Shown here: positions 1 through 48,320 of the stretch, in pieces | Numbering within the stretch: position 1 is the first letter of the stretch | How the letters are laid out: each line of letters opens with the position of its first letter | From: Caenibius tardaugens NBRC 16725 | GTDB lineage: Bacteria > Pseudomonadota > Alphaproteobacteria > Sphingomonadales > Sphingomonadaceae | Direction of reading: 5' to 3' | Assembly (NCBI RefSeq): GCF_003860345.1 | Contig: NZ_CP034179.1 | Coordinates: 186,001-250,000, forward strand | DNA: 64,000 nt | The notes under the pieces: generated by a model | What the model was told of the DNA's origin: nothing | The model's input: only the letters and a program-made list of their open reading frames with translations | The model's database searches: none | Program-made: the position numbers and the translations under genes

Positions 1-46
1 GTAACCGGGCAAGGCATGTGCGAACAGGAGCGAAACCATTAAACGG

Positions 47-45345: not shown

Positions 45346-46083
45346 TCATGCGCGCTGTGCAGCGATCAGAAATTCCACATTGCCTTCGGGGCCCGTGATC
45401 GGACTTTCGACGATACCGTCCACCGCCCAGCCTTCGCTTTCAAGCCAGGCGCGCACCTCATCGCATACGCGGGCATGCAAGGCGGGATCGCGCACGACGC
45501 CACCCTTGCCCACTTCCCCTTTGCCGACTTCGAACTGGGGCTTGATCAGGGCCACGAGACGGCATTCGGGTGACGCGAGTTTTAGAGGTACTTCCAATAC
45601 CTTATGCAACGAAATGAAGGACGCATCGCAAACCACCCAGGTACAGGGCGCATCGATCATTTCCGGTGTCAGAATGCGGGCGCTGGTCTGCTCAAGAACG
45701 GTGACCCGCGGGTCCTGGCGCAGTTTCCACGCCAATTGGTTAGTGCCAGAATCGACGGCAAAAACCCGTTCAGCCCCCTTGCTGAGCAGCACATCGGTAA
45801 ACCCGCCGGTCGAACTGCCGATATCCATCGCCACCACACCCGTGGGATCGAGTGCGAAATGATCGATCGCATGCGCAAGCTTGATTCCACCGCGCGATAC
45901 CCATGGATGATCCCGCCCTTTCAGGACGATTTCCACATCTTCCGCGAATTGCTGCCCCGGTTTGTCGGCCTTGCGGTCCCCCACCATGACCAGTCCGGCC
46001 ATGACAAGCGCCTGCGCCCGTGCCCTGCTTTCCGCCAGCCCGCGCATAACGAGCAATTGGTCGATCCGTTGTTTCTGTGCCAC
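45346..46083 (-). CDS. tlyA: TlyA-family S4-domain RNA methyltransferase
   Basis: It has 245 residues from the proposed GTG at 46083. The S4 RNA-binding domain (QRIDQLLVMRGLAESRARAQ) precedes a FtsJ-like methyltransferase with DIGSSTGGFTDVLLSKGA as the SAM site. It probably makes ribose methylations in rRNA; the older name is hemolysin A. The start is uncertain: in-frame ATGs at 46137 and 46140 would lie only 7-10 bases from the divergent gene at 46148. Confidence 0.88.
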   Translation of the reverse strand: MAQKQRIDQLLVMRGLAESRARAQALVMAGLVMVGDRKADKPGQQFAEDVEIVLKGRDHPWVSRGGIKLAHAIDHFALDPTGVVAMDIGSSTGGFTDVLLSKGAERVFAVDSGTNQLAWKLRQDPRVTVLEQTSARILTPEMIDAPCTWVVCDASFISLHKVLEVPLKLASPECRLVALIKPQFEVGKGEVGKGGVVRDPALHARVCDEVRAWLESEGWAVDGIVESPITGPEGNVEFLIAAQRA

Positions 46084-46147
46084 AAACCGGCCGATAGCCG
46101 ACCGAGCCCTCTTGAGCCAGCACCCGCTTCGGGCCATCATCGCCAAC

Positions 46148-46660
46148 ATGACTTTGAAGCGTCTTACCCCCGTCGCCCTGCTCGCCCTCGCAGCGTGCGT
46201 TCCGCAAGCTTCCCCACCGACACCCACACCAACGCCCACACCCCGGCCGGTTGAACGACCCCAGCCGCCGGTTCCGGCCACGCCACCCGCCACATGGATG
46301 GATATGCCACGCACCCCGGGCGACTGGTCCTATCGTCAGGGACGGGCCACCTACACCTCACCGCAAGGTGGGGCGATCTTCACCATGGCCTGCGATCGCA
46401 GTGCCGGACGCATTACGCTTTTGCGCGCAGGGGTTGCCGGGGAACGCACGACCATGCGCATTTTTACAGAAACCGCCAGCCGCTCCCTCGATTCGGCAGG
46501 CGGCACCGCTGGCGTCAATGCTTCGCTGACAGCGCGCGATCCCTTGCTGGATGCCATGGCGTTCTCGAAAGGACGGTTCGCGGTGGAAGTGCCCAACGCG
46601 CAAACCCTCTACTTGCCAAGCTGGATCGAAGTATCGCGTGTAATCGAGGATTGCCGCTGA
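46148..46660 (+). CDS. Predicted lipoprotein with a Pro/Thr linker
   Basis: Function unknown; 170 residues. The lipobox LAAC places the lipid on Cys17. A Thr-Pro repeat linker (TPTPTPTPRP) leads to a domain starting near WMDMPRTPGDWSYRQ and ending VIEDCR, with a cysteine in the middle (FTMACDR). The promoter must overlap the tlyA 5' region. A GC hairpin follows 117 bases after the stop. Confidence 0.85.
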   Translation: MTLKRLTPVALLALAACVPQASPPTPTPTPTPRPVERPQPPVPATPPATWMDMPRTPGDWSYRQGRATYTSPQGGAIFTMACDRSAGRITLLRAGVAGERTTMRIFTETASRSLDSAGGTAGVNASLTARDPLLDAMAFSKGRFAVEVPNAQTLYLPSWIEVSRVIEDCR

Positions 46661-46800: not shown

Positions 46801-46948
46801 AAACCCCAATTCTGACGGCAAAATAATTGAATGCAAGACTTGTGTTGCGGCGCATCATGACTCACATTGGAGACAAGCCCGGGGAGGTTCCGGGTTTAGC
46901 CGCAAAAAACGGCGACTTTGGCTCAACAGCGCGAAAGGAGGTGATCCG

Positions 46949-47005
46949 ATGTCTCATGGTCCAGCAGAGAGGTCGGCTACGTTCCGCACGGAGCATTATC
47001 GCTGA
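46949..47005 (+). CDS. 18-codon minigene with a perfect anti-Shine-Dalgarno complement
   Basis: The sequence AAAGGAGGTGATCC (46934-46947) is complementary to the last 14 bases of typical bacterial 16S rRNA and is spaced ideally (7 bases from GGAGG) from ATG 46949. The frame encodes MSHGPAERSATFRTEHYR and ends TGA at 47003-47005. Codon use (TCT, CCA, AGG) is unlike the GC-rich neighbours. There is no run of Ile, Leu or Val, so it is not a classical branched-chain leader peptide. Confidence 0.55.
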   Translation: MSHGPAERSATFRTEHYR

Positions 47006-47063
47006 TCTAGTTCAGTAAGCGATAAAGGCTTTGTGGGCGGCACTTCCTGGCCGCTGACCATGT

Positions 47064-47100
47064 GAAAGGCCGTTCCCGGCGATTGTCGGGGCGGCCTTTC
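47064..47100 (+). terminator. Terminal hairpin of the ilvE leader
   Basis: GAAAGGCCG (47064-47072) pairs with CGGCCTTTC (47092-47100), with a second CCCGGC/GTCGGG pairing inside. TCATATCT follows, only moderately T-rich. It lies 122 bases before ilvE. Confidence 0.6.
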
Positions 47101-47222
47101 TCATATCTGCCGATAACGATCGCCTGCGGCACAGGCCGCTTTGCCCAGCTTCCCCCTTGCACCGAACGCCACATAGGCTTACCCGCGCGCCTGTCCCGCA
47201 AACAGGAGAGGTAACTCTGCCG

Positions 47223-48320
47223 ATGCCCGAAAATCAGGGTCTTACGTTCGAACGTCTTCCCCACCCCGCTCCGACAGATTCGGCACAGCGGGAACAGGCG
47301 CTCGCCAATCCCGGTTTCGGTTCGGTATTTTCGGACCACATGGTCACGATCGACTGGGAAGAAGGCAAAGGCTGGCACAATGCCACACTCGGCCCGCGCG
47401 TTCCGTTGAGCCTCGATCCGGCAACCGCCGTGCTGCACTATGCGCAGGAAATTTTCGAAGGGCTGAAAGCTTACCGGCAGGCCGATGGCACCGTTGCCCT
47501 GTTTCGCCCCGAAGCCAACGCCGCCCGTTTCAACGCATCCGCGCGTCGGCTGGCCATGGCGGAACTGCCTGAAGAGACATTCGTCGAATCGGTGCGCCTT
47601 CTGGTCGAAGCTGATCGCGACTGGTTCCCGACGGTTGAGGGCGGTTCGCTGTACCTGCGCCCCTTCATGATCGCATCGGAAGCCTTCCTGGGCGTGCGCC
47701 CTTCGAAGAAATTCAAATATATCGTTATCGCCAGCCCGGCCGGTAACTATTTCAAGTCGGGCGCACCTGCCGTGTCGATCTGGGTAAGCAGCGACTATTC
47801 GCGCGCGGCCCCCGGTGGCACCGGTGCCGCCAAATGCGGCGGCAATTACGCAGCCAGTCTCGTCCCCCAGGCCGAAGCGATCGCGCGTGGGCACGATCAG
47901 GTCGTGTTTCTCGATGCGGAAGAGCACAAATGGATCGAGGAACTGGGCGGCATGAACCTGTTCTTCGTGTTCGACGATGGCCGTATCGTCACCCCCCCGC
48001 TGACCGGCACCATTCTGCCGGGCATCACCCGCAACAGCCTGCTGACGCTGGCCCGGGAAGAAGGGCTCGATGTTCATGAGGAACGCTACAGTGTGGAACA
48101 GTGGCGCGCCGATGCCGCCAGCGGCAAACTGATCGAAACTTTCGCCTGCGGTACTGCGGCGGTTGTCACCCCCGTCGGGAAGATTGCCGATCGCAATGGC
48201 GAAGTACTGATCGGTTCAGGCGGCCCCGGCCAGCTTACACAGAAATTCCGCGAGAAACTCGTTGGTATTCAGCGCGGCACGGTCGAAGACAAACATGGCT
48301 GGATAACGAAGCTTTCCTGA
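47223..48320 (+). CDS. ilvE: Branched-chain amino acid aminotransferase
   Basis: PLP fold-type IV enzyme for the last step of Val, Leu and Ile synthesis. It has 365 residues, the long class with YAQEIFEGLKAYRQADG, GSLYLRPFMIAS, AAKCGGNYAASL, EELGGMNLFFV and CGTAAVVTPVG. ATG 47223 follows GAGAGG, an acceptable but long spacing. The last 105 bases overlap, in antisense, the end of the deacetylase-fold gene. Confidence 0.95.
   Translation: MPENQGLTFERLPHPAPTDSAQREQALANPGFGSVFSDHMVTIDWEEGKGWHNATLGPRVPLSLDPATAVLHYAQEIFEGLKAYRQADGTVALFRPEANAARFNASARRLAMAELPEETFVESVRLLVEADRDWFPTVEGGSLYLRPFMIASEAFLGVRPSKKFKYIVIASPAGNYFKSGAPAVSIWVSSDYSRAAPGGTGAAKCGGNYAASLVPQAEAIARGHDQVVFLDAEEHKWIEELGGMNLFFVFDDGRIVTPPLTGTILPGITRNSLLTLAREEGLDVHEERYSVEQWRADAASGKLIETFACGTAAVVTPVGKIADRNGEVLIGSGGPGQLTQKFREKLVGIQRGTVEDKHGWITKLS

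Follow-up and report, generated by a model that had tools for sequence, protein, structure and literature searches.

Which product is encoded just upstream of an ilvE-like gene, where a run of bases complements the 3′ end of 16S rRNA: a leader of that gene, a small mRNA, or an RNA of its own? In the window (the whole stretch of DNA analysed, 64,000 nt), AAAGGAGGTGATCC is found at 46934–46947 on the forward strand with no mismatches, and the six other matches in the 64-kb window have three mismatches each. The 4.36-Mb genome contains a single exact copy, and simple arithmetic gives about 5 × 10−4 for an exact 14-mer arising by chance in 64 kb, both strands included. The 16S tail used for pairing was taken from two further genomes within the window's family, in which the 16S rRNA ends with ...GGCTGGATCACCTCCTTTCTAAGG, as TGGATCACCTCCTT has no match in the window's own assembly. 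With the addition of G46933, the pairing between the RNA and 16S rRNA reaches 15 nt (GAAAGGAGGUGAUCC with GGAUCACCUCCUUUC) and spans from the base of helix 45 to 1 nt before the predicted mature 16S 3′ end. Both the perfect 14-nt 16S complement of the original prediction, here extendable to 15 nt, and the 18-codon minigene placed on it (ORF at 46949–47002, followed by a stop codon) were confirmed. The features of the locus and its neighbours are as follows:

45349–46314, reverse strand: TlyA-like protein (S4 and FtsJ domains), the upstream neighbour in the clade
46840–46868, forward strand: promoter-like TTGTGT-17-CACATT, read by eye, with a predicted start near 46875
46875–46932, forward strand: 5′ leader of the window's own clade with hairpins CCCGGG..CCGGG and GCCGC-A6-CGGC (upstream sequences of L008–L010; fold)
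46933–46947, forward strand: GAAAGGAGGTGATCC, complementary over 15 nt to the free 16S tail; variants mostly keep the pairing via G-U
46949–47005, forward strand: 18-codon minigene with predicted peptide MSHGPAERSATFRTEHYR and stop codon TGA at 47003–47005; its length, but not its amino acids, is conserved in the clade
46955–46965, forward strand: P1 5′ arm CATGGTCCAGC (codons 3–6), pairing with 47053–47062; covariation
46971–46977, forward strand: GGTCGGC (codons 8–10), possible alternative partner of the P1 3′ arm (7-bp pairing)
46996–47025, forward strand: hairpin TTATCGC...GCGATAA beside the stop codon (arms 46996–47002 and 47019–47025); several relatives, but not all of them, have a stem like it
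47037–47054, forward strand: hairpin GCGGC-loop-GCCGC with CACUUCCU in the loop
47053–47062, forward strand: P1 3′ arm GCTGACCATG, from pairing counts and covariation
47064–47108, forward strand: intrinsic-terminator-like hairpin and tail (arms 47064–47076 and 47088–47100)
47223–48320, forward strand: ilvE-like class IV aminotransferase (Pfam PF01063; ATG at 47223), a neighbour only

Family Identity and Distribution

The Rfam search proposed along with the original prediction revealed that 46925–47097 matches RF01867 (CC2171, Caulobacter sRNA; Rfam 15) with a score of 47.4 bits and an E-value of 7 × 10−9. As this score is below the gathering cutoff of 75 bits, the element is referred to as a distant relative of RF01867, and not as a member by Rfam's rule. 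The alignment covers the whole model (positions 1–159 of 159), including the Shine–Dalgarno (SD) block, the RTG-TCT-CAU start, the P1 arms and the terminator stem, whereas a longer 5′ leader, a different ORF (MSHG...) and other neighbours distinguish the two. In the accessible literature (an open library, with subscription papers and supplements outside it), the CC2171 family is named without a function: one paper lists it among predicted sRNAs of Mesorhizobium (PMC5596092), another in a table of Rfam families (PMC11701678). In the former, MH_s33 of Mesorhizobium huakuii, a relative from another order that is annotated as RF01867, was detected by sequencing as a 215-nt transcript (PMC5596092).

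RF01867 was found in 96 of 385 genomes of the class. The strict motif AAGGAGGTGATCNNRTGTC is present in 74 of 385 class genomes and in 90 of 120 genomes of the window's own family, and its reversed control gave 0 matches. Based on genus names, the motif-carrying genomes include members of Sphingomonadales, Rhizobiales, Rhodobacterales, Caulobacterales, Rhodospirillales and Acetobacterales, so that the conservation in relatives on which the original prediction had staked itself extends over several orders of Alphaproteobacteria. Short R1 matches resemble bare terminators and were excluded by eye. A phage or plasmid origin was rejected, as a search of phage and plasmid collections returned no match; the motif is present in six of 2.9 million viral contigs (L297–L302). 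Judged by this comparison of sequences, the element is a real, conserved RNA gene across Alphaproteobacteria, probably a stand-alone one, distantly related to CC2171 (RF01867).

One genome of the window's family has two copies (L042 and G051:C1:2921838-2922077), one of which is of the Caulobacter type (MSHCH).

Minigene Length and Peptide

Across 194 distinct motif-selected loci, the ORF is mostly 14–26 codons long. The first stop in frame falls at codon 19 in 60 of the 69 sphingomonad loci and within 15–21 codons in the remaining nine, and the stops of these 69 loci occupy five distinct positions in frame versus 27 scattered ones in each of the +1 and +2 frames. Over the 69 loci, codon 19 underwent about 30 changes, about eight of them between stop and sense, on a tree of short flanks in which the stop labels are near random (24 changes versus 26 shuffled), making the change count uncertain. 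Since at most 2 in 9 single-base changes would by chance turn a stop codon into another stop, the excess of stop-to-stop changes is clear in spite of the poorly resolved tree. These patterns argue for selection on frame length in sphingomonads, consistent with a translated minigene.

The pooled pN/pS of 51 distinct sphingomonad 18-codon ORFs is 1.27, a value raised by RNA elements that constrain third positions and so lower pS. Codons 2, 3, 4 and 9 of these ORFs are invariant at every base, and in codons 10–18 the majority of codon changes switch the amino acid. In Rhodobacterales pN/pS is 0.86, and the Bradyrhizobium peptide is nearly fixed (six distinct sequences); therefore, the claim that length is kept rather than the peptide is restricted to sphingomonads, and in those two other groups the peptide may have a function. 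In that group, the comparison demonstrates that the frame and length of the predicted short ORF are kept and its amino acids are not, and, as length persists while amino acids drift, the act of translation seems to outweigh the peptide.

The most serious alternative is a small mRNA that encodes a functional peptide and has an unusually strong ribosome site. Such an mRNA would account for the perfect initiation region, for the recurrence of clade-specific peptides (MSxxKRCHLAGIAR in Bradyrhizobium, MSRVILERGVGT in Rhodobacterales) and for two members that encode secreted-looking peptides of 56–59 aa, but it is unlikely in view of a sphingomonad peptide that drifts around codons fixed at every base, and because no one peptide is common to the whole class.

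L156 (Azospirillum) and L255 (G144) have this start block in front of ORFs of 56–59 codons that share an AECS(T/S)SH motif and have a signal-peptide-like N terminus. In MSS-type loci (e.g., L246 and L252), the ORF often ends in EQPL or EQPS from GAGCAGCCTCT, which may form a small hairpin or resemble the aSD.

Predicted Pairing with the 16S rRNA Tail

The distance from the SD block to the start codon is 12 in all 194 motif-selected loci, although the selecting pattern permits little else. Since conservation of the motif cannot be judged on loci chosen by that motif, a motif-free set (L023–L052 and L303–L322) was obtained via covariance models; it comprises 49 distinct loci, or 48 after the exclusion of L322, a spurious terminator match. 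The models include the block themselves, and loci that have fully lost it could escape this set. In total, 36 substitutions relative to GAAAGGAGGTGATCC were counted, seven of them from L322, leaving 29 in the 48 loci. With the alphaproteobacterial 16S tail applied to every locus, most genomes being without a readable 16S end, 19 of the 29 substitutions (14 A>G, 5 C>T) keep the pairing as G-U; the pairing is broken by A>T (3), T>C (3), C>G (2), C>A (1) and G>A (1). Among the transitions, the ratio of pairing-keeping (A>G, C>T) to pairing-breaking (G>A, T>C) changes is 19:4, and 18:2 when L316 and L320 are set aside; in these two loci the block is one base shorter through a deletion and the spacing to the start is 1 nt shorter, hence their differences reflect a shifted alignment. 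The substitutions were tallied per locus and not per event (a one-position A>G recurs within families), so the ratios are given without a p-value. The substitutions thus tend to preserve pairing with the 16S 3′ tail, as a 16S-tail-binding RNA would require, and the comparison of relatives demonstrates that the predicted RNA carries a 5′ complement of nearly the whole free 16S tail at a near-fixed distance from the start codon.

Complete 16S 3′ ends were obtained from G005 and G006 (own family), G399 (Alphaproteobacteria), and G529 and G755 (Gammaproteobacteria). Two loci of one gammaproteobacterial family, L238 and L239, carry TAAGGAGGTGATC, and their 16S rRNA ends with CCTCCTTA, while alphaproteobacterial relatives carry GAAAGGAGG and alphaproteobacterial 16S rRNA ends with CCTCCTTTCT. 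The 5′ edge of the block is TAAGG in the former (16S end CCTTA) versus GAAAGG in the latter (16S end CCTTTCT); by this comparison, the edge in the two gammaproteobacterial relatives is altered to fit their own 16S end. Such relatives are rare (1 of 143 class genomes and 2 of 80 family genomes). The R1 scores of L238 and L239 are modest (30.4 and 18.7 bits, compared with 17.1 and 12.3 for two korB-like genes), so their homology rests on the block, the 18-codon ORF and the terminator jointly.

In four genomes of other classes (L240–L243), the extended SD CAAGGAGGTGATCTGATGTC precedes a 2-oxoacid:ferredoxin oxidoreductase beta-like (korB-like) gene.

A base-pairing sRNA, with its target seed in the 5′ block or the hairpin loops and the ORF secondary, is likewise improbable, and we place it after the peptide-encoding mRNA. 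The RNA is small, structured and probably terminated, it carries sRNA in its Rfam name, and its GGAGG could pair with the CCUCC loops of other sRNAs; such loops occur in alphaproteobacterial sRNAs. However, the match of the block to the 16S tail extends far past GGAGG and follows the 16S rRNA when this differs in Gammaproteobacteria, the frame length is kept, and apart from the SD block no seed is conserved across the class in A1.

Predicted RNA Structure and Transcript Boundaries

The region folds better than shuffled sequences (z = −4.3), in agreement with the structure originally claimed for it. CTTGN3-16..18-[CT]A[TC]NNT is found upstream of 69 of 194 relatives, compared with 1.1% of mononucleotide shuffles; a generic sigma-70 scan of the locus called no promoter. 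Covariation, proposed from the outset as a check, was detected in helix P1: 90.6% of its cells are paired, and 25 double changes were counted in a mixed set, versus 10.2 on average in shuffles and no more than 8 in slid versions. Among 64 sphingomonad loci whose 3′ arm could be recognised, 60 form the complete codon 3–6 helix; five further loci are without the arm. In 55 of these 64, codons 8–10 can form all 7 bp with the P1 3′ arm. As hardly any variation is seen in either partner, this second helix is put forward as a suggestion.

The stop codon had been placed within the 5′ arm of a hairpin. It does adjoin the hairpin, but falls inside the arm only through an inner CUGA/UCAG extension that is not conserved. 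Within the window's clade, the CACUUCCU loop is complementary to the SD at about the level expected by chance. The terminator-like hairpin claimed before ilvE is present and has a weak U tract; a generic terminator scan did not call the 47064–47108 hairpin, and our own scan, which has no chance estimate, located a similar one in 187 of 194 relatives. In the predicted RNA, the comparison thus demonstrates a covarying P1 that links codons 3–5 to the segment just before the terminator-like hairpin, with no fixed gene downstream.

Relationship to ilvE

According to the original prediction, the element is a leader before ilvE. It does lie on the same strand and 5′ of the aminotransferase gene in 14 loci of the window's clade, but at distances of 116–816 nt, and in other clades it is followed by genes for RNase R-like (RNB-domain), ExoD, GlmU-like (hexapeptide/NTP-transferase), DJ-1/PfpI or VWA proteins. 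No antiterminator partner was found for the terminator-like hairpin, and the RNA appears to end at this terminator of its own. With regard to amino-acid attenuation, MSHGPAERSATFRTEHYR contains no I, L or V, and hence no run of codons for the regulated amino acids, which upholds the earlier statement that this is not a branched-chain attenuator; a conserved position before the operon is also lacking, as the adjacency is limited to the clade. The ilvE attenuator was therefore rejected on the basis of neighbours, spacing, terminator and codons. The leader reading fails because the relatives come with terminator-like hairpins and often with promoter-like sites, and because no clade other than the window's has ilvE as the next gene; a cis-acting role on ilvE is very unlikely. 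Even less probable is an accidental strong SD without further function, since the motif, although used ordinarily by the korB-like genes of four other-class genomes, is conserved over several orders of Alphaproteobacteria together with covariation and recurring terminator-like hairpins.

Proposed Function

The explanation that we prefer, with a confidence somewhat short of even, is a stand-alone RNA that would bind the 30S subunit via the whole 16S tail, be translated for the act and not for the peptide, and act in trans. In this mechanism, 30S subunits would be captured through the extended pairing with the 16S tail, and the minigene ORF would be translated for the sake of translation itself. 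Ribosome occupancy would open P1, perhaps freeing its 3′ arm to pair with codons 8–10, and through its shape, its stability or the ribosomes it carries, the minigene RNA may report or buffer free 30S subunits, acting in trans and not on ilvE. We infer, in line with suggestions of the original prediction, that the predicted minigene RNA may sense free ribosomes and act in trans, which fits the data. A bolder version, in which an Alphaproteobacteria-wide ribosome-gated RNA combines whole-tail 30S capture with a minigene of fixed length and free sequence that toggles the structure, and senses or buffers free ribosomes in trans, is possible but doubtful.

Several known systems resemble parts of this arrangement. 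Pos19 of Rhodobacter sphaeroides (PMC5036791) is also a small coding RNA with an SD, a small ORF and a terminator, but it has a 50-codon ORF and an RpoE promoter and, according to the same source, was not found in other species. In the extended SD sites of Staphylococcus aureus (PMC13009471), the SD–aSD pairing is likewise lengthened towards the start codon, but these belong to ordinary mRNAs and uORFs in another phylum. SD sites are present at 24.6% of the CDSs of C. crescentus (PMC4117421). If confirmed, the preferred explanation would give bacteria with few SD sites a natural means of gauging ribosome availability. The analysis turns a listed sRNA family without an assigned function into a testable object, a class-wide RNA apparently tuned to the 16S tail, whose ORF in at least one large clade seems to be kept for length rather than for the peptide, and it allows an apparent ilvE attenuator to be set aside as false.

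A sensor could use self-sequestration of the SD; its closeness to chance in the window's clade (mean z = −0.23; −0.76 over 187 loci) counts against the preferred explanation. As a general property of the family it was rejected, since it is strong in Rhodobacterales and Bradyrhizobium but not in the clade of the window. At loci of Bradyrhizobium and Rhodobacterales such as L118 and L093, the SD and start codon are apparently sequestered by ORF or 3′ sequence (UCACCUC; CACCUCC), with mean z values of −1.8 and −1.7, respectively, versus shuffles.
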